A DNA stretch of 10,215 bases, taken from the NCBI GenBank assembly GCA_021413625.1, contig JAIOPY010000004.1, forward strand, positions 1 to 10,215, read 5' to 3'. This document shows positions 624 through 10,215 of the stretch, in pieces. A program made the position numbers and the translations under genes. The stretch's first letter is position 1. Each line of letters starts with the position of its first letter. The DNA is from Candidatus Nomurabacteria bacterium. Its GTDB lineage: Bacteria > Patescibacteriota > Minisyncoccia > Phycocordibacterales > UBA9973. The notes under the pieces are model-generated. The model was not told the origin of the DNA, made no database searches, and saw nothing but the letters and a program-made list of their open reading frames with translations.

Positions 624-632
624 TGCTATTAT
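624..632 (+). promoter_or_regulatory. Extended -10 promoter of the small DUF1003-like gene
   Basis: The plus strand reads TGCTATTAT at 624-632, overlapping the opposing -10 of the divergent gene. The predicted start of transcription is near 639, giving a leader of about 19 bases. That leader carries AGGA at 648-651, six bases before the ATG at 658. This is the only well-placed Shine-Dalgarno-like site in the window. Confidence 0.45.
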
Positions 633-636
633 ATCA
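628..636 (-). promoter_or_regulatory. Extended -10 promoter of the DUF5671-like gene
   Basis: On the minus strand the sequence reads TGATATAAT, then seven bases (AGCATTT), then the ATG at 620. The -10 hexamer is a perfect consensus with the TGn extension. The predicted transcription start falls at or one base before the A of the ATG. No good -35 box is visible. Confidence 0.6.
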
Positions 637-657
637 TATATAAGCATAGGAATAAAT

Positions 658-999
658 ATGGATAGAAAATTTGAGAATTTTTCAAAAAAATTAACGAATT
701 GGATTGGCTCTGTCCAGTCTATTATTTTTCATACTATATTTTTCATAGCTATTTTTAGCTTAAGATTATTTAACGTTTCTTCAACAGATGTTTTGCTCAT
801 TTTAACCACCATAGTATCTCTGGAAGCTATTTACCTCTCAATTTTTATTCAAATGACCGTCAATAAACATGGAGAAGAATTGGAGGAGGTTTCAGAAGAT
901 ATTGAAGAGATTCAAGAAAACGTGGATGAAATTCAGGAGGACGTTGAAGAAATTCAAGTGGACGTGGAAGAAATCCAAGGAGAGAAAGACTCTATTTAA
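658..999 (+). CDS. Small DUF1003-like membrane protein with C-terminal heptad coiled coil
   Basis: A 113-residue protein with two hydrophobic helices at about residues 17-37 and 45-66. The pattern NWIGS...FHTIFF...SLEAIYLSIFIQMTVN resembles DUF1003 and low-affinity iron-permease-like small membrane proteins; function in this group is unknown. Residues 80-107 form four tandem heptads of the form x-D/N-V/I-D/E-E-I-Q, with I/V at every a and d position, so a strongly acidic coiled coil should extend from the membrane. A six-base-spaced AGGA precedes the ATG. The stop (997-999) overlaps the end of the convergent methyltransferase gene (stop at 992-994), leaving no room for a separate terminator. 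The start is well supported; the family call is moderate because the N-terminal match is short. Confidence 0.7.
   Translation: MDRKFENFSKKLTNWIGSVQSIIFHTIFFIAIFSLRLFNVSSTDVLLILTTIVSLEAIYLSIFIQMTVNKHGEELEEVSEDIEEIQENVDEIQEDVEEIQVDVEEIQGEKDSI
895..978 (+). repeat. Four tandem 21-bp units encoding coiled-coil heptads
   Basis: In-frame units start at 895, 916, 937 and 958. Each encodes a seven-residue unit ending E-I-Q, and the units are clearly related at the DNA level (for example GTGGATGAAATTCAG and GTGGAAGAAATCCAA). The pattern fits tandem duplication of one heptad codon block. Confidence 0.8.
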
Positions 1000-1918
1000 T
1001 ACTCCAAACAGCGGTATTCGCAAGAGAGATTAATCTTTGATTTGATTTTTCTAACACACAAAGTTCTCCTTGTTCTACTTCTCCACCAAAACCCCCGCCT
1101 GCACCAGCTGTGCCGGAAGCATTGCGAGCAGGTTTCATCATCTCCTCTAGCGCATAACCTAAAGATAAGCTGGAAGAATCAGTAGCGTAAGAAGTTAAAA
1201 TTACAAAAAGCGGTTTATTATTTAAAACTTTTCTTACTTGGGTTAAAAGTTTAGGCAGGTTATCTTCTAACTTCCAAATCTCCCCTTTCGGACCTCTACC
1301 AAATTTAGGCGGGTCCATAATTACACAATCATATTTGTTACCTCTTTTTTCTTCCCTCTCTAAAAATTTAATTACATCATCTTCTATGACACGCATAGGC
1401 AAACTTTGTAGGTCTGCATTTAGTTCCTGATTTTCTTTTGCTAATTTTAAGCTTTGCTTGGAAGCGTCTAGATGAGTGACATCAGCCCCCGCGCGAAGAG
1501 CAAACAAGGAAGCCACGCCAGTATAACCAAATAAGTTTAGGAATTTTATTGGTCTTTTGGCTTCTTTTATTGTTTTCTCAATAAAATCCCAATGTGGAGC
1601 TTGTTCTGGAAAAAAACTCAAGTGACGAAAAGGTGTTGGAGAGGCTAAAAATTTAATCCCCTTATATTCCATCTCCCATCTCTCTGTAAATTTACGCTCC
1701 ATTTTCCAACCAGCCTTTGCTCCAACCTTACTACTCCAAAATTTACCATCTATATCCGCCCACTCACTTTTTGCTAGTGTTTTTAACCAAACAGCATCTT
1801 CATATGGACGCACAAATTTATGGGAACCAAACATCTCCAATTTTTCCCCCTCTCCGGTATCTAGAAGTTCGTAGTCTTTCCAATCCTTAGTATAAAAAAT
1901 TTTAATTTGATTATTCAT
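992..1918 (-). CDS. Class I SAM-dependent methyltransferase, RlmI/RlmK-like (COG1092 type)
   Basis: A 308-residue enzyme of the class I Rossmann methyltransferase fold, predicted to transfer methyl from S-adenosylmethionine to a nucleic-acid base, most likely rRNA. Visible motifs are motif I (LNLFGYTGVASLFA, 127-140), the acidic ribose-binding Asp151 after the second strand (HLDAS), EDD at 179-181, and motif IV DPPKFGRG at 202-209. DPPKFGRG is characteristic of the RlmI/YccW-like group. A Gly-rich segment (GAGGGFGGE, 272-280) lies near the C-terminus. It lacks the N-terminal PUA domain of E. coli RlmI, as do many short relatives, so the exact rRNA position cannot be assigned. The ATG follows the ychF stop after two bases (TAA-TT-ATG), indicating co-transcription. 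Its stop overlaps the convergent small gene. Confidence 0.88.
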   Translation of the reverse strand: MNNQIKIFYTKDWKDYELLDTGEGEKLEMFGSHKFVRPYEDAVWLKTLAKSEWADIDGKFWSSKVGAKAGWKMERKFTERWEMEYKGIKFLASPTPFRHLSFFPEQAPHWDFIEKTIKEAKRPIKFLNLFGYTGVASLFALRAGADVTHLDASKQSLKLAKENQELNADLQSLPMRVIEDDVIKFLEREEKRGNKYDCVIMDPPKFGRGPKGEIWKLEDNLPKLLTQVRKVLNNKPLFVILTSYATDSSSLSLGYALEEMMKPARNASGTAGAGGGFGGEVEQGELCVLEKSNQRLISLANTAVWSIK

Positions 1919-1920
1919 AA

Positions 1921-2910
1921 TTATATTTTGAATTCTATAACATCACCGTCTTTAACGATATACTCTTTACCTTCAGTACGAACAAGCCCTTTACTGCGAG
2001 CAACACCATAAGAACCAGCGTCTAACAAATCTTTCCAATTTACAACTTCCGCGCGAATAAATTTGTCTTTGAAATCGGTATGTATCGCCATCCCAGCTAC
2101 TGGCGCGGTAGAGCCTATTTTTATAGTCCAAGCGCGAGATTCATCTTCTCCTGTTGTAAAATATGTTTCTAGTCCCAATAGTTTATAACTACCCGTAATT
2201 AAATCATCAAAACCTTTTTCAAAAACAGAATCAATTTTTACATATGGTCCAGGCACCGCAAACTCTACATTTTGATTAGCTTCCGAGGTGTTTAAAACAT
2301 AAAGCATAGGCTTCAAAGTAAGTAAGTTAAGTGATTTTATTTTAAATTTTTCTTCTTCACTCAAGTCTGCGCTTGTTGCCATTTTGCCTTCTTCTAAAAC
2401 TTTTTCTACTTTTTTTAAAATACTATCTTCTAGAATTATGTCTTTATCTCCCTTTTTTATTTCTCTAGATAGGTTTGCAAGTCTTTTAGAGACAATTTCC
2501 ATATCCGACAAAACCAATTCTAAATTTATAATGCCTATATCCGACAACGGGTCAATTTTATTGGCTACGTGTATAACCGAAGGGTCTTCAAAAACTCTGA
2601 CCACATGCGCAATAGCATCTACTTCACGGATGTTAGATAAAAATTTATTACCTAAACCCTCACCCTTTGAAGCGCCAGCCACCAGCCCTGCAATATCCAC
2701 AAATTCTATAACTGCTGGAATGGTTTTTGCGGATTTTGAAAGTTCTGATAACTGATAAAGACGGTCATCCGGAACAGGTACAATACCTACTGAAGGGTCA
2801 ATGGTGCAAAAAGGATAATTCTCAGCTGGAACACTCTTTTTAGTGAGCGCATTAAAAAGCGTGGACTTTCCCACGTTTGGCAGACCTACAATTCCAATTG
2901 ACAGTGACAT
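1921..2910 (-). CDS. ychF: Redox-regulated ATPase YchF (Obg-family P-loop NTPase with TGS domain)
   Basis: A 329-residue member of the YchF/OLA1 family, cytosolic ATPases that bind ribosomes and are linked to stress and translation control. Visible are the Walker A GLPNVGKS (9-16), G2-region NYPFCTIDP (31-39), G3 VDIAGLVAGA (71-80), the family signature KGEGLGNKF (82-90) and His114 at the position of the catalytic His114 of E. coli YchF. The G4-like NTSE (207-210) stands where YchF proteins have NVDE/NMxE rather than the GTPase NKxD. A C-terminal TGS domain covers about 246-329. E. coli YchF has 363 residues; the shortfall is mainly between NTSE and the TGS domain, where the usual G5 and helical segment is replaced by about 23 residues. 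The start is supported by an extended -10 (TGCTATATT) ending six bases before the ATG; no Shine-Dalgarno is present. Confidence 0.96.
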   Translation of the reverse strand: MSLSIGIVGLPNVGKSTLFNALTKKSVPAENYPFCTIDPSVGIVPVPDDRLYQLSELSKSAKTIPAVIEFVDIAGLVAGASKGEGLGNKFLSNIREVDAIAHVVRVFEDPSVIHVANKIDPLSDIGIINLELVLSDMEIVSKRLANLSREIKKGDKDIILEDSILKKVEKVLEEGKMATSADLSEEEKFKIKSLNLLTLKPMLYVLNTSEANQNVEFAVPGPYVKIDSVFEKGFDDLITGSYKLLGLETYFTTGEDESRAWTIKIGSTAPVAGMAIHTDFKDKFIRAEVVNWKDLLDAGSYGVARSKGLVRTEGKEYIVKDGDVIEFKI

Positions 2911-2916
2911 AGGAGA

Positions 2917-2925
2917 AATATAGCA
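2917..2925 (-). promoter_or_regulatory. Extended -10 promoter of ychF, leaderless geometry
   Basis: The minus strand reads TGCTATATT, then six bases (TCTCCT), then ATG. This places the predicted +1 on the A of the start codon. The site lies in the short gap between the 71-residue gene and ychF, so ychF may be transcribed both from here and by read-through. Confidence 0.5.
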
Positions 2926-2937
2926 GAATTTTATATT

Positions 2938-3153
2938 CTAAACCAGTTTTCGCAGTTCACTTTCGTATTTCTTCATCACCACCAAACTAGCTGTGTTTTG
3001 GTCCATACCATTCTTTGTTTTTTCCTGTATTTCGTCGGCAATAGTTTTAAAAAGGTCTGGATTTTTTTCCATCATTTTTATAAACATATCTATCTGGGCT
3101 TCAGGCACGCCTTGAGCTTTTAACATTTTTCTAAGTAAAAAATTTTGAAACAT
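2938..3153 (-). CDS. Small helical protein of unknown function (71 residues)
   Basis: The protein starts MFQNFLLRKMLKAQ and is predicted to be almost wholly alpha-helical, with no membrane segment or signal peptide. It has the pattern GVPEAQIDMFIKMMEKNPDLF followed (after KTIA) by DEIQEKTKNGMDQNTAS, then a final amphipathic helix. I recall similar short proteins (an NFLL-KML start, a 'KNPELF..I..EIQ.K...GMDQ' core) in Parcubacteria genomes, annotated as hypothetical, but no function is known. The gene lies 15 bases after the surface-protein gene and 27 bases before ychF. The start is supported by TTGATA, 16 bases, TATAAT, then exactly seven bases to the ATG. There is no Shine-Dalgarno sequence. 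The reading frame is credible from its helical pattern, conserved look and operon position. Confidence 0.72.
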   Translation of the reverse strand: MFQNFLLRKMLKAQGVPEAQIDMFIKMMEKNPDLFKTIADEIQEKTKNGMDQNTASLVVMKKYESELRKLV

Positions 3154-3160
3154 GTCTGCA

Positions 3161-3188
3161 ATTATAAATTATTCATCTAAAATATCAA
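3161..3188 (-). promoter_or_regulatory. Candidate promoter of the 71-residue gene, leaderless geometry
   Basis: On the minus strand a -35 TTGATA (3188-3183) is separated by 16 bases from a perfect -10 TATAAT (3166-3161). Seven bases (TGCAGAC) then lead to the ATG at 3153. The promoter lies across the 3' end of the upstream gene. Confidence 0.5.
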
Positions 3189-4557
3189 AATCATGACCGA
3201 GCTGATTGGATATTTTTTTACTACGAATAAAATAAACTGCAATAGAGCTAATACTAATCAAACCAAGGGCAACCAGTGTCCAAAGGTAAGATATATTATC
3301 TTTGTTAGAAGCTAGTGTTTGAGCTAATAAATCTTCATTTGGAATAATGTTTTCTTCTAATACAAGCCCTTCGTTAGTTGAAATATTAGAATCACTAACT
3401 GTGGGGCTTATTTGGGTTGTTCGTTTGGCAACTTTTGGCTTAACTAGAGACTTACCATATTCAAACACTAATTGTCCCTCTTGGTCGTTTAATTTTAAAT
3501 TATTTTTATCTAAAAAATCAAAATTTGTAACTTTAGGAGATAATATTATTTTTTTCTTTCCAAGAATAACAGTATTTCTAGGAAAAATAAATTTTTTATC
3601 CAGCGAAGATAAAATCCAGCCAGATACATTAACTTCATAAGCGGTATTATTAATAAGTTCAATAAAAAAATCTTTCTGGTCTCCTACTCTAGAGATTGAA
3701 ACACTCATAGGAACAACTTTCACCATTACTTCTGCAGTAAGGTCTGGGGTTTTGGAAAGATTTTTAGGAAAATGTTCTAAGGAAATTAAATACTCCCCTT
3801 CATAGAAATATGTGTGGGAAAAAGTTTCTACATCTTTTGTTTCTTTTGTATTACCATCACCAAAATTCCAAAAATATTTCCCTTTTTCTCCGCCAATCAT
3901 TTCCGACTGTAATTCAAACGGAGTATTTATGAAAACAACTTTAGGCGCAATGATTCTTAATTTTGGTTTCAAAGGAACTGTTTCCGTTTTCTTAGAAGAC
4001 TTGGAACTACTAGAAGAACTGTTGCTACTAGTGCTATTACTAGAATTATTTTCAACATCAGAGCTCTCGTTAGAATTCTCATTATTTGAAGAAGTTATAT
4101 TTTCCACTCCAGGCGTAGGTGGAGCACCCGACCAAGAACCATTTATAAGCTGAAAAGAGTCCCCGCCTATTGCAGACCCTTCAGGAACCAAGACTGTATC
4201 AACAGTTTCGGAATTAATTTTAAGAATTACAGTGTCCTCTGCGGTGGACTTTATTCCAAGCGCACTTTTACACAGCGCAAAAGTGGGATTAGAAAAATCT
4301 TCTGGCACTTTGGCTATAATTGCATAAGAGTTGGGTGAAAGTAGTCCAGAACAAAGAGAAATACCATGTCCATTAATTGCCGCACCTGCATCTAGAATTT
4401 TATATTGAGTAAGGTCAATAGCATCATTGCTGTCATTGTAAATTTCAATCCACTGCTTGGAAGTGGGAGAATAGAATATCTCGTTGATGATTACACCTGC
4501 ATAAATAGAGTGAAATCCAGAGAAGAAAATAACTATGAGCAAAAACTTTTTGAACAT
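3169..4557 (-). CDS. Surface-anchored lamin-tail / PKD domain protein (LTD-PKD-LTD)
   Basis: A 462-residue predicted exported protein. A signal peptide (residues 1-20, positive MFKKF start, hydrophobic core, AYA before Gly21) leads into a first lamin-tail domain (about 21-150; VIINEI, KQWIEIYN, and Cys70/Cys96, which could form a disulphide). A Ser/Asn-rich linker (about 154-189) precedes a PKD domain (about 198-283, with WNFGDG at 230-235 and SHTY followed by GEY). A second, divergent lamin-tail domain covers about 286-370 (FFIELINNT, VSGWILSS). A low-complexity stretch leads to one transmembrane helix (about 424-444) and a short basic-then-acidic cytoplasmic tail. The protein is therefore type-I-like, with its binding domains outside the cell. 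Function is unknown; such domains usually mediate protein, carbohydrate or surface contacts. It heads the minus-strand cluster and is divergent from the sugar kinase gene. Confidence 0.85.
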   Translation of the reverse strand: MFKKFLLIVIFFSGFHSIYAGVIINEIFYSPTSKQWIEIYNDSNDAIDLTQYKILDAGAAINGHGISLCSGLLSPNSYAIIAKVPEDFSNPTFALCKSALGIKSTAEDTVILKINSETVDTVLVPEGSAIGGDSFQLINGSWSGAPPTPGVENITSSNNENSNESSDVENNSSNSTSSNSSSSSSKSSKKTETVPLKPKLRIIAPKVVFINTPFELQSEMIGGEKGKYFWNFGDGNTKETKDVETFSHTYFYEGEYLISLEHFPKNLSKTPDLTAEVMVKVVPMSVSISRVGDQKDFFIELINNTAYEVNVSGWILSSLDKKFIFPRNTVILGKKKIILSPKVTNFDFLDKNNLKLNDQEGQLVFEYGKSLVKPKVAKRTTQISPTVSDSNISTNEGLVLEENIIPNEDLLAQTLASNKDNISYLWTLVALGLISISSIAVYFIRSKKISNQLGHDFDILDE

Positions 4558-4568
4558 AATTTTGATTC

Positions 4569-4574
4569 TTTATA
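4569..4574 (-). promoter_or_regulatory. Weak -10 candidate for the surface-protein gene
   Basis: The minus strand reads TATAAA followed by 11 bases and the ATG at 4557, implying a leader of only about four bases. There is no TGn extension and no convincing -35. It shares a 47-base divergent spacer with the kinase promoter. Confidence 0.3.
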
Positions 4575-4589
4575 TTTTGTAAGAAGATA

Positions 4590-4598
4590 TGCTATTAT
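4590..4598 (+). promoter_or_regulatory. Extended -10 promoter of the pfkB-family kinase, leaderless geometry
   Basis: The sequence TGCTATTAT ends six bases (TATAAC) before the ATG at 4605, so the predicted +1 is the A of the start codon. No Shine-Dalgarno precedes the ATG, and no -35 is placed correctly. A second in-frame ATG at 4614 would not fit this geometry. Confidence 0.55.
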
Positions 4599-4604
4599 TA
4601 TAAC

Positions 4605-5600
4605 ATGGAAAAAATGGATTTTTTAGCAATTGGGGATACTGTAATAGACGCATTTATAAAAATAAAAGATGCCCACGTGCATTGCAAAATAGACACCGAT
4701 GCGTGTGAACTTTGCTTTAGGTTTGGTGACAAAGTTCCCTACGAAGAAGTAACTGTAGTGCCTGCAGTGGGCAACGCCGCAAATGCTGCTGTGGCGGCAA
4801 GCCGTTTGGGTTTAAAATCAGCACTGGTAACAAACATAGGAGATGATAGAGACGGCGAAGAATGTTTAACTTCATTAAAAAAAGACAAAGTAGATACGAG
4901 TTTTGTGAAAGTTAATACTGGAATTAAAACAAATTATCATTACGTGTTATGGTATGTGCCTGAACGGACAATTTTAATAAAACATGAAAAATATGAATAC
5001 TCTTTGCCAGATATCGGAGAGCCTAAATGGCTTTATTTTAGTTCAGTAAGTAGCACTGCCTTCCCTTTTCATAACACCATAGCCGACTATTTAGAAAATC
5101 ATAAAGGAGTTAAGCTTGCTTTTCAGCCTGGAAAAAATGAAATTAAATTAGGTAAAGAAAAATTAGAAAGACTTTATAAAAACGCAGAAATATTTTTCTG
5201 CAACGTGGAAGAAGCAGAAACAATTTTAGGTAAAGAAACTAAAGACGTTTTAGAACTATCCAAAGGAATTTCAGCCTTAGGTCCTAAAATGGTTGCCATA
5301 AGTGATGGGCCAAACGGCGCTTATCTTTATTTAAATAATGAACTTTGGTTTATGCCAATATATCCTGACCCTGTACCTCCATTTGAACGTACTGGCGCTG
5401 GAGATGCTTTTTCCTCTACATTTACTGCAGGACTTGCATTAGGCATGTCTCCACTAGAAGCGTTAGCATGGGGACCAATAAACTCTATGGCAGTAGTTCA
5501 AGAAATCGGTGCCCAAAAAGGCTTGCTCTCACGCGAAAAATTAGAAGAATACCTAAAAAACGCTCCAGCAGACTATAAACCAAAGAAAATTGTAAAATAA
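4605..5600 (+). CDS. PfkB/ribokinase-family carbohydrate kinase
   Basis: A 331-residue kinase of the ribokinase-like (PfkB) fold, which phosphorylates sugars or nucleosides with ATP. The first strand DFLAIGDTVID starts at residue 5. The substrate-binding signature GNAANAAVAASRLG is at 56-69, the NVEEAE element at 200-205, and the C-terminal signature with anion hole and catalytic Asp is TGAGDAF (263-269, Asp267). Between strand one and the substrate motif lies an unusual lid segment with His24, His26, Cys27, Cys34 and Cys37, a possible metal site. This lid is, as I recall, typical of CPR relatives. The substrate cannot be read from sequence; ribose, fructose-6-phosphate-like or nucleoside substrates are possible. 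It is convergent with the pentose phosphate operon, which suggests but does not prove a link to that pathway. The start is set by a leaderless-type promoter. Confidence 0.9.
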   Translation: MEKMDFLAIGDTVIDAFIKIKDAHVHCKIDTDACELCFRFGDKVPYEEVTVVPAVGNAANAAVAASRLGLKSALVTNIGDDRDGEECLTSLKKDKVDTSFVKVNTGIKTNYHYVLWYVPERTILIKHEKYEYSLPDIGEPKWLYFSSVSSTAFPFHNTIADYLENHKGVKLAFQPGKNEIKLGKEKLERLYKNAEIFFCNVEEAETILGKETKDVLELSKGISALGPKMVAISDGPNGAYLYLNNELWFMPIYPDPVPPFERTGAGDAFSSTFTAGLALGMSPLEALAWGPINSMAVVQEIGAQKGLLSREKLEEYLKNAPADYKPKKIVK

Positions 5601-5666
5601 ATTTTTGAAGGGGTTTTGAGGCTGGCGAGCCGAAAACTTCAGGATTTTTAAAGCTTCAAAAAATCC
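5601..5666. terminator. Hairpin-rich convergent spacer, possible bidirectional terminator
   Basis: This spacer separates the converging kinase and transketolase C genes. One imperfect hairpin (5607-5640) pairs GTTTT (5613-5617) with AAAAC (5633-5637) and GGCT (5620-5623) with AGCC (5628-5631). A second (5642-5666) pairs GGATTTTT with AAAAATCC across a nine-base loop. A longer-range pairing of ATTTTTGAAG (5601-5610) with CTTCAAAAAAT (5654-5664) is also possible. Neither hairpin is followed directly by a clean T-run, so a canonical intrinsic terminator is not proven. The region is locally more G+C-rich than its flanks. Confidence 0.4.
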
Positions 5667-5686
5667 GTACCGTAAAAAATTTCATT

Positions 5687-6697
5687 TTATAATTTTCTCT
5701 CTAGTGCTTTTTTTACAGCTTCTTTTATAGAGTCCTTGCCAATACCATAATGCTCCACCAATTCATCAGGTGTGCCAGACTGTCCAAATTTATCTTGGAC
5801 TCCAATAAACTCTATCGGCACGGGAAAATTTTTAGCTAAAACTTCTGCAACAGCGGAGCCCATACCCCCAGCTACTTGATGTTCTTCTACTGTCACAATT
5901 GCCTTACATTCTTTGGCTAATGCTAAAATTGCTTCCACGTCTAGTGGTTTTATTGAAGCCAAATTCATTACTTTAATTTTTACACCTTCAACTTCTAATT
6001 CTTTTGCAGCCAACAATGCACGATGCATTAGGCTGCCAGTAGCAATAATTCCTACGTCTGCAATACCTACTTCAGGTAGCCAATAAATTTCTGCCTTTCC
6101 ATGCTCATATGGGGTTTCGTCAGTAGTAATCACTGGTGTTTTTTCACGAGCCAAACGTAAATAGGCAGGCTTACCTGTTTTAGCTAAAACAATCGTAGCT
6201 TTCTTTGCTTCTATAGAATCACAAGGAGAAATCACATCCATATTTGGCATTACTCGCATAAGAGCAATATCTTCAAGCGCTTGATGAGTGCCACCATCTG
6301 GTCCAACAGAAATACCGGCATGGGAACCGACAACTTTTACGGGTCGGTCATTGTAAGCTATAGTAGTTCGGATTTGCTCCCAATTACGTCCTGGAGAAAA
6401 CATGGCATAAGAAGAACAAAAAGGAATTTTACCCATCGCCGCCATACCTGAAGCAACAGTTGCTAAATTTTGTTCTGCGACACCTATTTCAACAAATCTC
6501 TCAGGAAATTTTTCTGCAAATAAATTCATTTGTGTTGATTCAGTTAAATCCGCACAGAGAGCTACAACATTTTTATCTATCTCGCCTGCCGCAGCCAACC
6601 CTTGCCCAAAACCTTTACGTATTGGCACTTGTTCGCAAGCATTTTCGCCTGCAGTGTTCCAAAGCTTTGGATTTAATTTTAATTTTGGATTTAACAT
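5687..6697 (-). CDS. Transketolase, C-terminal subunit (split transketolase)
   Basis: A 336-residue protein matching the pyrimidine-binding and C-terminal domains of transketolase. With the N subunit it would transfer two-carbon ketol units between sugar phosphates in the non-oxidative pentose phosphate pathway. Motifs include ALCADLTEST (46-55), the catalytic Glu75 in IGVAEQN (71-77), which activates the thiamine diphosphate aminopyrimidine ring, SYAMFSPGR (96-104) and DGGTHQALEDI (134-144). The C-terminal domain has VEEHQVAGGMGSAVAE and the GxxDxFGQSG pattern. Residues 1-12 contain a short repeat (LNPKLKLNPKL). The ATG is three bases after the N-subunit stop (TAA-TTT-ATG), so the two subunits should be made together and pair in the cytosol. 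Related pairs are also called 1-deoxyxylulose-5-phosphate synthase-like, but the gene context favours transketolase. Confidence 0.93.
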   Translation of the reverse strand: MLNPKLKLNPKLWNTAGENACEQVPIRKGFGQGLAAAGEIDKNVVALCADLTESTQMNLFAEKFPERFVEIGVAEQNLATVASGMAAMGKIPFCSSYAMFSPGRNWEQIRTTIAYNDRPVKVVGSHAGISVGPDGGTHQALEDIALMRVMPNMDVISPCDSIEAKKATIVLAKTGKPAYLRLAREKTPVITTDETPYEHGKAEIYWLPEVGIADVGIIATGSLMHRALLAAKELEVEGVKIKVMNLASIKPLDVEAILALAKECKAIVTVEEHQVAGGMGSAVAEVLAKNFPVPIEFIGVQDKFGQSGTPDELVEHYGIGKDSIKEAVKKALERKL

Positions 6698-6700
6698 AAA

Positions 6701-7564
6701 TTATTCATGCTCGCTCTTAATTTTTCCACCTAGTGTTCGCAGTTCTTTCAAAGCCAAGCTAGCTTCTTCTTTATTTGGCGGTTTACCATGCCATTTATAA
6801 TCTCGCTCAAATTCATGCACGCCTTTGCCAGGTATGGTATGAGCGATAATTACCGTCGGTTTTTCATATATTGCTTGAGCTTCTTCTACCGCTTCATTCA
6901 ACCTCTCAAAATTATGTCCGGAAGTTTCTATCACATGCCAATTAAAAGATTTCCATTTATCAGCAAGTGGTTCCAGCGGCATTATGTTTTCAGTAAAACC
7001 ATCTATTTGAATATTATTTCTATCAATAACCACGATTAAATTTCGTAATTTATTTTTCCCAGCAAGCATTACTCCTTCCCAAGAATTACCTTCATCAAGC
7101 TCACCATCTGACATAAAGCAATATATGAATCTATCATTTTCTTTTTTATCAATTCTATCTGCAAGCGCCATACCTACGGCTTGAGAAAGCCCAGCGCCTA
7201 GTGGCCCAGAGCTATTTTCCACCCAAGGCATGTATTCACGGTGTGGATGCCCTTGCAGTCTGCTGCCAAATTTACGTAGAGTTTTTAATTCTTCTAGTGG
7301 AAAATACCCTGCATGCGCCATGGTTGCATACAACACCGGACAAATATGTCCATTAGATAAAACCAGACGGTCTCGCTCTGCCCATAATGGATTCTTGGGG
7401 TTATGTTTTAAAATATGAAAATAAAAAAGAGTAAAAATATCTGCCATACCAAGTGGTCCAGCAGTATGCCCGCTTCCAGCTTCTAACAGCATTTCAATAA
7501 TAGACTCCCGAATTTGATTTGCTTTTTTTTCTAAACTTAAAATTTTTTCTTGAGTTAACAACAT
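6701..7564 (-). CDS. Transketolase, N-terminal subunit (split transketolase)
   Basis: A protein of 287 residues from the second of two adjacent ATGs, holding the thiamine diphosphate pyrophosphate-binding domain of transketolase. Counting from the first ATG, visible elements are the GSGHTAGPLG loop (31-40, active-site His34), SNGH (71-74), SSGPLGAGLS (119-128), and the metal/ThDP motif SDGELDEGNSWEG (153-165) with its partner DRNNIQIDG (182-190). HGKPPN (260-265) lies near the end. The first residue of the usual GDG is Ser here, which I recall as common in CPR relatives. Two ATGs stand at 7567 and 7564. The TGGTATAAT promoter lies exactly seven bases before the second, matching other genes in the window, so 7564 is preferred. 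The gene follows the epimerase after about 25 bases and is coupled to the C subunit. Confidence 0.93.
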   Translation of the reverse strand: MLLTQEKILSLEKKANQIRESIIEMLLEAGSGHTAGPLGMADIFTLFYFHILKHNPKNPLWAERDRLVLSNGHICPVLYATMAHAGYFPLEELKTLRKFGSRLQGHPHREYMPWVENSSGPLGAGLSQAVGMALADRIDKKENDRFIYCFMSDGELDEGNSWEGVMLAGKNKLRNLIVVIDRNNIQIDGFTENIMPLEPLADKWKSFNWHVIETSGHNFERLNEAVEEAQAIYEKPTVIIAHTIPGKGVHEFERDYKWHGKPPNKEEASLALKELRTLGGKIKSEHE

Positions 7565-7566
7565 CA

Positions 7567-7581
7567 TTGGTATTATACCAA
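7567..7581 (-). promoter_or_regulatory. Extended -10 of the transketolase pair inside a perfect inverted repeat
   Basis: On the minus strand TGGTATAAT (7580-7572) is followed by seven bases to the ATG at 7564. The whole site TTGGTATAATACCAA is a 15-base inverted repeat with seven-base arms around one central base, so the -10 box is embedded in a possible operator. A weak -35 (TTGGTG, 7600-7595) is 17 bases upstream. It could allow the two transketolase genes to be expressed independently of GAPDH. Confidence 0.5.
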
Positions 7582-7591
7582 TAAATTAAAA

Positions 7592-8290
7592 TCACACCAA
7601 GCTTTGAAAATATTCTAAGGCGCCAATAGGGTCCTCACTTTTCCAAATACTAGAACCAATAACTAAACGGTCAGCACCAGCGTCAAGTATCATCTGCGCA
7701 TCTTCCATGTTAATACCAATATCAACCGACATCACAACTCCTGGTAAGTTTTTTCTAAGAAATTTTATATTTTCTAATGCTTTTTCGGAAAAAGACTCAC
7801 CTTGAAAACCAACCTTGTCCGAACCCATAACATGCAGAAAGTCCACCTTGTTGGCTAAATCAGATACAACAGCTAGGTCATCACTCGGTTTAAATGCTAA
7901 ACCAATTTCTACACTATCTCTTATATACATATCTAAACCTTCCAGAAAATGTTTAAAATCTTCAATATTTTTCTGCGCGCCTAAATGAAAAATTATTCTC
8001 TTCGGACCTAATTTCATATAAATATCAAAATCCTCCACAGCATTCATGACCATAAGGTCTAACTCAAAATCAAATTCTTGCCAAAATGGCAATCCTTCTT
8101 CTTCATTCATGATTCTTTGAAAATCAGCGTCTTCAAAACCACCAGATGCAAAAGGCCAAGTTTGATTTGGCACAAAAATTCCATCTTCAATATCTAAATG
8201 CACGCATTTTACTCTACCACTTAGAGTAGTAAGTTTATTTTTGATTTCACTTATTTTTTTTTCTAAAATTGCAGGAGTTATACTTCTCAT
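7592..8290 (-). CDS. Ribulose-phosphate 3-epimerase family protein (divergent)
   Basis: A 232-residue TIM-barrel protein of the Rpe family, expected to interconvert ribulose-5-phosphate and xylulose-5-phosphate. Family elements are PAILE at the N-terminus (6-10), HLDIEDGIFVPN (31-42, with His31 and Asp33), LDLMV (77-81), the phosphate-loop counterpart GSDKVGFQGESF (156-167), SVDIGIN (188-194, Asp190) and GSSIW (212-216). It departs from canonical Rpe: the usual PSIL serine is Ala7, the metal-ligand His of DVHLMV is Asp78, and the NPGFGGQ loop is altered. The acid/base pair Asp33/Asp190 is kept, so epimerase activity is plausible, perhaps with altered metal or substrate preference. It sits between RpiB and transketolase, as a pentose phosphate enzyme would. 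The ATG at 8290 has only a distant AGGAG (about 20 bases). Confidence 0.8.
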   Translation of the reverse strand: MRSITPAILEKKISEIKNKLTTLSGRVKCVHLDIEDGIFVPNQTWPFASGGFEDADFQRIMNEEEGLPFWQEFDFELDLMVMNAVEDFDIYMKLGPKRIIFHLGAQKNIEDFKHFLEGLDMYIRDSVEIGLAFKPSDDLAVVSDLANKVDFLHVMGSDKVGFQGESFSEKALENIKFLRKNLPGVVMSVDIGINMEDAQMILDAGADRLVIGSSIWKSEDPIGALEYFQSLV

Positions 8291-8319
8291 ATTCTTTTAT
8301 TCAAAAAAACTCCTATGAT

Positions 8320-8805
8320 TTACTTTGGGTCACGTATATTAATCTTATCTATTTTAGCCAAACGCCTTACATGTCTCTCACCCTCACCATAAGGAGTATT
8401 AAGCCATGTATTCACAGCGCTCATCATAGATTCTTCAGTTAGATATCTAGCACCTAAAGACAAAATATTGGAATTGTTATGGTCACGAGAACGGATAATT
8501 ATATCTGCCTCATCATCTACTACGGACTTTGCTTTGCCGTAATAAACCACTGCCCGAACATGTGGAAATTTATTTGCAGCAATAGCCTCTCCTTGTCCTG
8601 TTGCTCCCATAATAATACCTCTTGCGTTGTTAGGGTCATGGGACACCTCACGTGCGACTGGCACAACGAAGTCAGGATAGTCATCCGTCTCGTTGTAACT
8701 AAAAGCACCTTTATCTAAAACTTCATGTCCTTGAGCTCGTAATAGAGTTACAAGTCTTTCCTTTAAAACATATCCTGCATGGTCTGTGCCGATAAAAATT
8801 TTCAT
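8320..8805 (-). CDS. rpiB: Ribose-5-phosphate isomerase B (RpiB/LacAB family)
   Basis: A 161-residue cytosolic enzyme that interconverts ribose-5-phosphate and ribulose-5-phosphate. The N-terminal motif is IGTDHAG (5-11, Asp8 and His9), followed by DYPDF (42-46), the glycine loop GATGQGEAIAANK (67-79), SRDHNNSN (106-113, His109) and GERHVRR near the C-terminus. The catalytic Cys of the E. coli type CGTG loop is missing; Glu73 is present instead. This resembles the Mycobacterium tuberculosis enzyme, in which a Glu at this place replaces the Cys as base. The length fits the family. The ATG follows the GAPDH stop after three bases (TAA-TTT-ATG) without a Shine-Dalgarno site. A TATAAA lies seven bases before the ATG, but it is encoded by the end of GAPDH and may be coincidental. 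Confidence 0.92.
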   Translation of the reverse strand: MKIFIGTDHAGYVLKERLVTLLRAQGHEVLDKGAFSYNETDDYPDFVVPVAREVSHDPNNARGIIMGATGQGEAIAANKFPHVRAVVYYGKAKSVVDDEADIIIRSRDHNNSNILSLGARYLTEESMMSAVNTWLNTPYGEGERHVRRLAKIDKINIRDPK

Positions 8806-8808
8806 AAA

Positions 8809-9837
8809 TTATTTTATAAAACTACCAGTTTTTAAAACATGGTCTACTAATGTGTAAGTATATCCCATTTCGTTATCATACCAACCCATAACTTTGACCA
8901 AGTTGCCGCCCACTACTCGAGTTAGTCCTAAGTCGGCTACTGAACCGTGGTGAGTACCTAAAATATCCGAGGAAACAAGAGGCTCATCAGTAACTCCAAA
9001 TACTCCTGCCCATCTTTTCTCTTTTGCTGCTTTCCTAAGAATTTCATTTACTTCTTCTACGGTTGTGTTTCTTTTTGAAATAAAAGTAATATCCGCGATT
9101 GATCCAGAAATAATTGGCACACGAACAGAAATACCATCAAACAAACCTTCAAGTGCTGGAATAGCTTTAGTTACAGAAATCGCTGCGCCAGTCGATGTCG
9201 GAATCATGTTGTGTCCGCCAGCTCTACCTTCACGAAAATTGCTCTTGTTTATGCCATCAACAGTTGGTTGACTATTAGTCAATGCGTGCGTTGTATTCAA
9301 AAGTGCTTTTTCTATTCCAATAGTTTCATGCAAAATAGCGACCAAAGGACTCGCCCCATTAGTGGTGCAGGAAGCATTCGCGGTTATATCACATGTGCCA
9401 AGCTTATCTTCATTAACACCCATTAAAATAGTTTCACCAGCTACTCCCCCAGCCTCACTCTTCACTGGCGCAGAAATCACAACTTTTTTTGCTCCTGCTT
9501 TTATATGAGCACTCGCCTTATCGTAGGAATTAAAGAAGCCGGTTGATTCTACTACTACATCTACTTCTAAGCTCTTCCATGGCAACATAGCTGGATCTTT
9601 CTCTGTCAAAACTTTTACTTTCTTGCCATCAATTACAATACTGTCTCCTTCGACTTGGACATCATGTTCTCCCCACTTTTTATAAACGGTGTCGTATTTC
9701 AAAAGGTAAGCTAAGTTTGCAACATCTGATAAATCATTGACTGCTACAATTTCCAATTCTGGATGCTCCCAAGCAAGCCTTAGAAATATCCTACCAATTC
9801 TGCCAAAACCATTAATACCAACTTTTATTCGTTTCAT
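8809..9837 (-). CDS. gap: Glyceraldehyde-3-phosphate dehydrogenase, type I
   Basis: A 342-residue enzyme that oxidises glyceraldehyde-3-phosphate with NAD and phosphate to 1,3-bisphosphoglycerate in glycolysis. It shows the Rossmann motif INGFGRIGR (8-16), Asp35 in VNDL (a mark of NAD preference), the catalytic SCTTN (156-160, Cys157), the base His184 in NTTHALTNSQ, NMIPTSTGAA (210-219) and WYDNEMGYT (319-327). The second Cys of the usual CTTNC is Gly161. The frame is open to an upstream TTG at 9873, but that TTG is the -35 box of a strong promoter whose -10 ends seven bases before the ATG at 9837; the start MKRIKVGING is therefore chosen. It leads the operon gap-rpiB-rpe-transketolase N-transketolase C, coupling pentose phosphate reactions to lower glycolysis. 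Confidence 0.97.
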   Translation of the reverse strand: MKRIKVGINGFGRIGRIFLRLAWEHPELEIVAVNDLSDVANLAYLLKYDTVYKKWGEHDVQVEGDSIVIDGKKVKVLTEKDPAMLPWKSLEVDVVVESTGFFNSYDKASAHIKAGAKKVVISAPVKSEAGGVAGETILMGVNEDKLGTCDITANASCTTNGASPLVAILHETIGIEKALLNTTHALTNSQPTVDGINKSNFREGRAGGHNMIPTSTGAAISVTKAIPALEGLFDGISVRVPIISGSIADITFISKRNTTVEEVNEILRKAAKEKRWAGVFGVTDEPLVSSDILGTHHGSVADLGLTRVVGGNLVKVMGWYDNEMGYTYTLVDHVLKTGSFIK

Positions 9838-9844
9838 GATATTT

Positions 9845-9873
9845 ATTATAACAACAAGTAGATAGGTTGGCAA
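9845..9873 (-). promoter_or_regulatory. Strong sigma-70-type promoter of the gap operon, leaderless geometry
   Basis: On the minus strand TTGCCA (9873-9868, five of six matches to TTGACA) is followed by a 17-base spacer and a perfect TATAAT (9850-9845) with TGn extension (TGTTATAAT). Seven bases (AAATATC) then lead to the ATG at 9837. This is the best promoter in the window and fits a highly expressed glycolytic gene. Confidence 0.72.
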
Positions 9874-9924
9874 AAGCTTGTATTGTCTTATCTAAGCCAT
9901 GTTGATAAAGAGTTTTTGAATTCA

Positions 9925-9933
9925 TGATATTAT
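9925..9933 (+). promoter_or_regulatory. Extended -10 candidate of dnaE
   Basis: TGATATTAT overlaps the first in-frame ATG (9932). A weak -35 (TTGATA, 9902-9907) lies 20 bases upstream. Seven bases after the -10 box comes an in-frame TTG at 9941, the same spacing as in other promoters here. Either the ATG is used from an upstream transcript or TTG is a leaderless start. Confidence 0.4.
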
Positions 9934-10215
9934 GGGAAAATTGCAAGAAAATAAAGAAAGCTTTATACACTTACACACCCACAGCCATTATTCTCTTTTA
10001 GACGGGCTTTCTAAGATTGAAGATTTAGTGGCTTTGGCAAAAAAATTCAAAATGCCTGCAATGGCGATAACCGACCATGGCAACATGTATGGCGCTATTG
10101 AGTTTTATAAATTAGCCAAGAAGGAAGGCATAAAACCAATTATTGGAGTAGAAGCATATATGACCGCGGGCTCTCGCACCGACCGCACAGCAGAGGCTGG
10201 AGGAAGTAAAAGATA
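9932..10215 (+). CDS. dnaE: DNA polymerase III subunit alpha, N-terminal part (PHP domain), partial
   Basis: The open frame runs off the right edge, so only about 94 residues of a protein usually over 1,000 long are present. The start of the PHP domain is unmistakable: [22 protein letters not shown] near the N-terminus, then [17 protein letters not shown] and [12 protein letters not shown]. These carry the metal-binding-type HxH and DHG elements typical of DnaE N-termini. The protein is the catalytic subunit of the replicative DNA polymerase. The first in-frame start is ATG at 9932 ([10 protein letters not shown]); an alternative TTG at 9941 would give a protein three residues shorter and fits the leaderless spacing seen elsewhere. 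It is transcribed divergently from gap across a spacer of about 94 bases. Confidence 0.95.

Follow-up and report, generated by a model that had tools for sequence, protein, structure and literature searches.

The stretch of DNA analysed here (the window, 10,215 nucleotides; contig JAIOPY010000004.1 of the Candidatus Nomurabacteria assembly GCA_021413625.1) carries -10 promoter boxes of the TATAAT type, mostly with a TGn extension, a few bases before several of its start codons. We consider it very probable that many genes at the head of transcription units in this genome have leaderless-type sigma-70 extended -10 promoters, and that their translation is initiated largely without Shine-Dalgarno pairing. 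Leaderless initiation is established in other bacteria. An earlier reading of the window from its letters (the sequence-only reading) had proposed that leaderless mRNAs may be the rule here. The boxes do appear to act as promoters placed for leaderless mRNAs, genome-wide and in much of the phylum, but “the rule” overstates the case. The genome that contains the window as contig 12 (G000; 527,439 bases in 84 contigs, 94% complete) is incomplete. Among named genomes, the nearest matches of the window's YchF protein are from Candidatus Nomurabacteria and other Parcubacteria/Paceibacterota, and on the strength of these matches we place the window on the Paceibacteria side within the candidate phyla radiation.

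Position and character of the -10 boxes

The promoter sample consisted of the window and 40 further contigs (41 sequences, 270,282 bases, 34% G+C), in which open reading frames (ORFs) were taken from 80 codons upwards, later from 70, with the first ATG as naive start. Nx denotes x bases between the -10 hexamer and the start codon. An expectation-maximisation motif model was dropped because shuffled AT-rich sequence gave equally high motif fractions; in its place, fixed scores weighting TATAAT and TGn (maximum 12, with 10 or more counted as strong) were compared with shuffles and with other gaps. Hexamers with at most one mismatch to TATAAT peak exactly at N6 (36 of 263 genes, vs 2 to 17 at each other distance), and a stricter TATAAT-like hexamer stands at N6 of 40 in-frame ATGs compared with 4 out-of-frame ATGs. 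With the first ATG as start, 31 of 265 genes have a strong site at N6, whereas 200 dinucleotide shuffles average 0.69 and never exceed 6; for N5 to N9 the count is 52/265 and the shuffle mean and maximum are 3.35 and 14. The check suggested by the sequence-only reading, the position of TATAAT-like hexamers relative to starts with a shuffled control, gives a sharp N6 peak in the sampled part of the genome.

If any in-frame start is allowed, 62 of the 265 genes have a strong box 5 to 9 bases upstream (33 at N6, 12 at N7, 7 at N8, 10 at N9, and none at N5), and the start codon is ATG for 60 of them. Strong boxes are nearly absent at N4 (1/265) and N5 (0/265). By class, the 62 genes comprise 26 of the 54 divergent ones, 19 of the 83 on the same strand with an upstream gap above 40 bases, and 17 of the 128 that are closely packed. 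In front of divergent genes, strong sites reach 87 per kb at gap 5 to 9 (20 of 230 positions), falling to 6.5 per kb at gap 10 to 20, 0 of 866 positions at 20 to 40, and 2 to 3 per kb beyond; larger-gap same-strand genes have 39 per kb at gap 5 to 9, and the genome at large 1.5 per kb.

A -35-like TTG, for which the sites were not selected, is seen at -23 to -21 of the hexamer in the 62 aligned sites (T 0.58, T 0.71, G 0.32), which corresponds to a 17-bp spacer. The TGn extension reaches T 0.95 and G 0.89 in these sites, although the score itself rewards TG; a first-ATG logo of 52 divergent genes, made with no score, retains a weaker TG-n-TA (T 0.54 at -15, G 0.35 at -14). A pyrimidine before +1 is the rule that fits the A of ATG as transcription start. 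It directly precedes the ATG in 25 of the 33 N6 sites, as expected if +1 is the A of ATG. Judged by their sequence, the boxes look like sigma-70-type extended -10 promoters placed for leaderless mRNAs.

The same spacing is preferred well beyond this genome. In 286 whole genomes of the phylum, exact TATAAT-N6-ATG was found 7451 times and TATAAT-N14-ATG 3425 times; N6 exceeds N14 in 250 of the genomes and falls below it in 29, 74 of the 286 have p below 0.001, and at family level N6 is the more frequent in 110 of 130. With a phase-matched control at N21, available for 116 of the 286 genomes, the counts are 2646 for N6 and 1113 for N21. The genome of the window has 41 at N6, 9 at N14, and 6 at N21, and the 15 genomes of family f16 together have 760 at N6 vs 147 at N14. 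One member of f16, G107, has the highest N6 count of all 286 genomes (124 vs 16 at N14); it has Shine-Dalgarno motifs as well (22/52 genes vs 6/52 background), and therefore both modes coexist there.

Among 432 genes in 30 loci of Paceibacteria-like relatives (four of them, L051, L056, L063, and L065, named “bacterium” only), sites peak at N6 to N8 (36, 21, and 17) vs 0 to 13 at other distances, and no spacing peak is present in 624 genes of 48 control loci; loci L068 and L069 are in neither set. The excess of strong N5 to N9 sites over background amounts to 22% of head genes in G130 (same genus) and G161 (same family), 20% in two genomes of the order, 16% in the relatives' loci, and 4% to 18% in four other genomes of the phylum, whereas it is -1% among 394 control head genes (Lachnospiraceae, Burkholderiales, and others). 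These comparisons leave next to no probability for an artefact of base composition or coding phase, by which TATAAT would be common near ATG in an AT-rich genome and naive starts would create the peak. The low G+C of the sample and the high motif-model fractions on shuffled data had made such an artefact conceivable, but the shuffles give 0.69 sites at N6 where 31 are observed, the phase-matched N21 and the N14 controls both stand at about half of N6 or less, and neither out-of-frame ATGs nor control bacteria have the peak.

Boxes in the window and in orthologous genes

The boxes of the window are as follows.

628..636, minus strand: extended -10 box TGATATAAT, N7 before ATG(620) of a DUF5671-like gene
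2917..2925, minus strand: extended -10 box TGCTATATT, N6 before ATG(2910) of ychF
3161..3166, minus strand: -10 box TATAAT without TGn, N7 before ATG(3153) of a gene for 71 amino acids
4590..4598, plus strand: extended -10 box TGCTATTAT, N6 before ATG(4605) of pfkB
7572..7580, minus strand: extended -10 box TGGTATAAT of transketolase N, N7 to the second ATG(7564) and N4 to the first
9845..9853, minus strand: extended -10 box TGTTATAAT, N7 before ATG(9837) of gap
9925..9933, plus strand: possible extended -10 box TGATATTAT, N7 before TTG(9941) of dnaE; an in-frame ATG(9932) overlaps the box

The first six, which the sequence-only reading had picked out, are all present at the positions and distances it gave, four with a perfect TATAAT and five with TGn, as it had claimed. 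The seventh, which it had offered as a possibility, is also present at N7 of TTG(9941), and its use is undecided in view of the overlapping ATG(9932). The reading had further placed the start of transketolase N at the second ATG. Since strong boxes at N4 and N5 are almost absent genome-wide, this choice is supported, and so is the downstream ATG of the DUF5671-like gene, for which a longer ORF from ATG(647) would include the box TGATATAAT.

In both divergent pairs of the window (624-636 and 4590-4605) the -10 box of one gene overlaps a TGn-TATAAT-like box on the other strand; this second box lies 25 and 39 bases upstream of the opposite gene and could act as its promoter. As a general feature of divergent promoters such overlap is unconvincing (17/62 vs 11/62 in a control stretch). 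The ychF gene (1921-2910), which lies behind a leaderless-type promoter, encodes an ATPase, and promotion of leaderless-mRNA translation by a YchF-type ATPase is reported in work cited in PMC12641178. Positions 3169-4557 encode a 462-residue protein with, by eye on the ORF translation, a signal-like N-terminus and a C-terminal membrane-like segment.

Orthologues of the boxed genes keep the arrangement in part. Among the ychF loci of 29 relatives, L042, L044, L109, and L113 have TGCTATATT or TGGTATATT at N6 of an ATG, L045 and L070 have a box at N9, and most others are without such a box; a -35-like ATGACT is visible by eye 17 bases upstream in L042 and L113. For gap, 30 loci of the order, the window's own included, were taken from 57 genomes with a match (starts located by regular expression in 20 and by tblastn in 10). 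A site scoring at least 9 lies at N5 to N9 in 9 of the 30; in 16 it lies only at least 12 bases upstream (12 to 48; L212 has one also at 10), and 5 have neither a near nor a far site. None of the 30 has a Shine-Dalgarno tetramer at -18 to -3. For dnaE, 22 of 24 loci from 41 genomes were readable, the window's own included; a site lies at N5 to N9 of the assumed start ATG in 14 of the 21 readable orthologues, and the window's own gene has none there. This variation among gap orthologues and among dnaE orthologues indicates that promoter position is not evolutionarily fixed per gene, which limits any notion of a rule.

The gap genes also bear on another explanation, that the TATAAT-like hexamer is an AT-rich translation enhancer of mRNAs with ordinary leaders, like the AT-rich non-canonical sites of Bacteroidetes. 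Starts in this genome are indeed generally rich in A+T (operonic genes have 80% from -20 to 0), and some excess of boxes is found at operonic genes too, the 17 of 128 mentioned above. Against an enhancer stand the TGn and the -35-like element at a 17-bp spacer that accompany the box, an excess that reaches 46% at divergent genes and 13% within operons, and the gap orthologues, in which the extended box is also found 12 to 48 bases upstream, as a promoter would be. We therefore regard the enhancer as improbable and keep to the promoter reading.

Shine-Dalgarno motifs and the 16S tail

The near-lack of Shine-Dalgarno sites that the sequence-only reading had seen in the window extends to the genome. 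Taking all genes of G000 together, with boxed genes not separated, motifs precede 20 of 274 genes (7%) vs 28 of 274 (10%) in an upstream control window. In G130 and G161 the corresponding counts are 1/102 and 5/102, while in control bacteria motifs precede 344 of 643 genes (53%) vs a background of 90 (14%). A whole-genome count of GGAGG-N5-8-ATG in G000 (46 vs 22 reversed) was set aside, as the motif occurs at gap 5 to 8 only once among 263 first ATGs; we take most of these matches to lie inside genes.

A likely reason for this lack, which the sequence-only reading had not seen, is found at the 3′ end of 16S ribosomal RNA in relatives, which is without the anti-Shine-Dalgarno (anti-SD) sequence. 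All 13 readable tails of the family, including those of the same-genus genomes G130 and G371, lack CCUCC; at the position of ...GGATCACCTCC... in other bacteria they read ...GTGGAATAATTCAATTTGA... or near it. Every family genome whose 16S match is full-length has a single match. Both genomes read in the order outside the family (G025 and G183) lack CCUCC as well. In the rest of the class, 21 of 50 readable tails have lost CCUCC, 10 have one base changed, and 19 are intact; outside the class it is intact in 55 of 58 and changed by one base in 3.

Tails were fetched from 14 of the 18 family genomes that gave a match, 2 of the order, 66/85 of the rest of the class, and 69/86 from outside it, and were read by pattern, two readings being merged into the 13, 2, 50, and 58 counted. 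Unreadable tails numbered 1/14, 0/2, 18/66, and 23/69 in the first reading and 1/14, 1/2, 17/66, and 12/69 in the second, in the same order of groups. Two apparent losses outside the class were not counted: that of G012 is a misread stretch in which CCTCC is present, and that of G079 a misread stretch without a helix-45 end by eye. G405 is tallied as changed by one base, though its tail looks lost.

In a quick 16S tree of 53 rows with the tail left out, the family falls within an 18-row clade (Shimodaira-Hasegawa-like approximate likelihood ratio test, SH-aLRT, 99) in which all tails are changed, 15 lost and 3 with one base altered. At least 6 transitions between intact and changed occur over the whole tree, of which well supported branches alone force 2. 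Because the clade is changed throughout and the tree holds several transitions, these sequences argue that the loss of the anti-SD is real and old in the window's family and has probably been repeated elsewhere in the class.

Substitute pairing is not indicated. In G000, 5-mers complementary to the family tail precede 62 of 128 operonic genes vs 61.5 in shuffled sequence and 58 of 137 head genes vs 66, with 6-mers likewise not enriched; the complement of the canonical tail is not enriched either (operonic 26 vs 27.3, head genes 18 vs 17.2 shuffled).

It could be supposed that the mRNAs are leaderless while ribosomes of the window's species retain a normal anti-SD, so that Shine-Dalgarno pairing is merely rarely used. 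The 16S gene of the window genome was not assembled, most readable tails outside the class have CCUCC, and G107 combines the N6 signal with Shine-Dalgarno motifs. Set against this, none of the 13 readable family tails has CCUCC, two of them from the same genus, the family sits within the clade in which every tail is changed, and the window genome has no more Shine-Dalgarno motifs than background. We judge a retained anti-SD to be very improbable, and its loss in the family remains our reading of the tails.

Three further observations concern the tail and its surroundings. A CUCC-loop-GGAG precursor hairpin, in which the anti-SD pairs with a GGGAG-like stretch directly downstream of it, was found for 93% of 74 intact tails vs 31% of 36 lost ones (16S loci L122-L151 and L258-L286 plus short stretches), and several tails with one base changed retain it through paired changes. 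Similar flanks occur in Firmicutes, and the hairpin may be an ordinary processing element. Ribosomal protein bS21 has a match in 18 of 60 genomes of the order, mostly weak and over the cut-off in 4; this search gave no match in G000, which is not decisive. Most bacteria of the candidate phyla radiation (CPR) have lost Era, which binds GAUCACCUCC, according to PMC10582724 and PMC12641178, and this loss may have removed one constraint on the 16S tail.

Extent of the mode, mechanism and known systems

Several observations weigh against the reading as a general account of this genome and its relatives. A strong box is found in only 62 of the 265 genes, and both a strong box and a tight junction with the preceding gene are missing from 28 divergent, 64 larger-gap, and 39 close genes. 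Larger-gap same-strand genes have strong sites at 17 of 3,717 positions (4.6 per kb) at gap 20 to 70, from which we conclude that some leadered promoters exist. The 16 gap genes of the order with a box only at least 12 bases upstream point the same way, and operon-internal genes often start a few bases past the previous stop codon instead; together with the class counts given above, these are the grounds on which leaderless mRNAs cannot be called the rule. Counts of TTGACA with up to two mismatches show only a weak peak, at spacers 14 to 17, and all gene starts are naive ORF starts. In families f15, f49, f67, and f91, N6 is not significantly in excess. GGAGG precedes 3 of 137 head genes of G000 vs 0.6 expected, and a stricter Shine-Dalgarno set gives 24 vs 11 in the control among the 432 genes of the relatives' loci. 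The assembly of G000 has no 16S gene, and the tail evidence comes from relatives only. Finally, the ratio of N6 to N14 is 1.62 in 7 genomes without the anti-SD and 1.73 in 56 with it, and G043 and G269 have neither an anti-SD nor an N6 excess; as the ratio is no higher where the anti-SD is absent, the comparison does not tie leaderlessness to anti-SD loss.

We propose that at unit heads TGnTATAAT and a weak -35 element about 17 bp upstream would place +1 on the A of ATG or 1 to 3 bases before it. The resulting mRNAs would be leaderless or nearly so, and the ribosome would bind the 5′ AUG directly. Genes inside operons may be started mainly by reinitiation, by a ribosome just ending the previous gene, with AT-rich starts helping, and the remaining genes would have short leaders without Shine-Dalgarno sequences. 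Two junctions in the window illustrate the packing.

6698..6703, minus strand: operon junction of transketolase N stop codon, TTT, and transketolase C ATG, without Shine-Dalgarno
8806..8811, minus strand: operon junction of gap stop codon, TTT, and rpiB ATG, without Shine-Dalgarno

For same-strand neighbours between -30 and +40 bases, 47% of 124 junctions have 0 to 9 bases from stop to start, vs 15% of 219 in control bacteria. Reinitiation is the simplest reading because stop and start are so tightly packed in operons.

Leaderless-type promoters are found across much of the phylum and anti-SD loss is repeated within the class; the order of the two in time is inferred. A history in which an old, phylum-wide leaderless habit made the Shine-Dalgarno helix dispensable, and the anti-SD then decayed repeatedly in the Paceibacteria group, has in our estimate an even chance of being correct. 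It would have left families without any Shine-Dalgarno pairing, which rely on 5′ AUG binding at operon heads and on stop-to-start reinitiation inside operons.

The closest known arrangement is that of Deinococcus-Thermus, for which PMC12340547 describes TANNNT about 6 to 7 bp before the start as a promoter -10 element giving leaderless mRNA, with such a box before nearly one third of the genes of D. radiodurans. The likeness lies in a -10-type box at 6 to 7 bases from the start codon. According to the same source TACACT is the commonest form there and occurs alongside a GGAG ribosome-binding motif, whereas the low-GC genome studied here has TGnTATAAT, shows no enrichment of Shine-Dalgarno motifs, and has relatives that lack the anti-SD; the substantial Shine-Dalgarno class of a Deinococcus-type mixed genome was not found in G000 (7% vs 10% control). 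The TA-led genes of Zheng et al. 2011 are also similar. PMC3160421 places their TA-like signal about 12 bp upstream of the start, reads it as a -10 box of leaderless genes, which are known from many bacteria, and notes a TG before the box in several low-GC genomes; it covers 953 bacterial genomes, and its main text has no mention of candidate division, TM7, or uncultured.

PMC6107228 describes a variant or missing anti-SD in 128 of 20,648 taxids, which cluster in Bacteroidetes, Mycoplasma, and Carsonella and mostly have no Shine-Dalgarno sequences before genes; it found no variant Shine-Dalgarno with perfect complementarity to a variant tail. The genomes treated here resemble these taxa in a tail without CCUCC and in the lack of Shine-Dalgarno sequences before genes, which is nearly always seen there; they differ in being a Paceibacteria-group family and several other parts of its class. 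A 2024 survey has a category iv of Shine-Dalgarno-scarce organisms without CCUCC (PMC10783764), and its main text does not mention Patescibacteria, Parcubacteria, candidate, or CPR. Patescibacteria are likewise unmentioned in the main text of a gene-start paper that groups bacteria by leaderless transcription (PMC9581028). In the open-licence literature we found neither leaderless genes nor anti-SD loss reported for CPR bacteria. Initiation without Shine-Dalgarno pairing is shared with Bacteroidetes ribosomes, whose anti-SD is sequestered, a feature to which PMC9723584 refers. In Bacteroidetes CCUCC is usually present but hidden, whereas here, in the 16S of relatives, the CCUCC sequence itself is gone.

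The CPR makes up a large share of bacterial diversity and is known almost solely from sequence. If the reading given here is true, gene callers that reward a Shine-Dalgarno site would misplace starts in these lineages, and expression systems built on E. coli would not carry over to them. The lineages would then provide a natural test case for start-codon choice in bacteria that do without the textbook signal.

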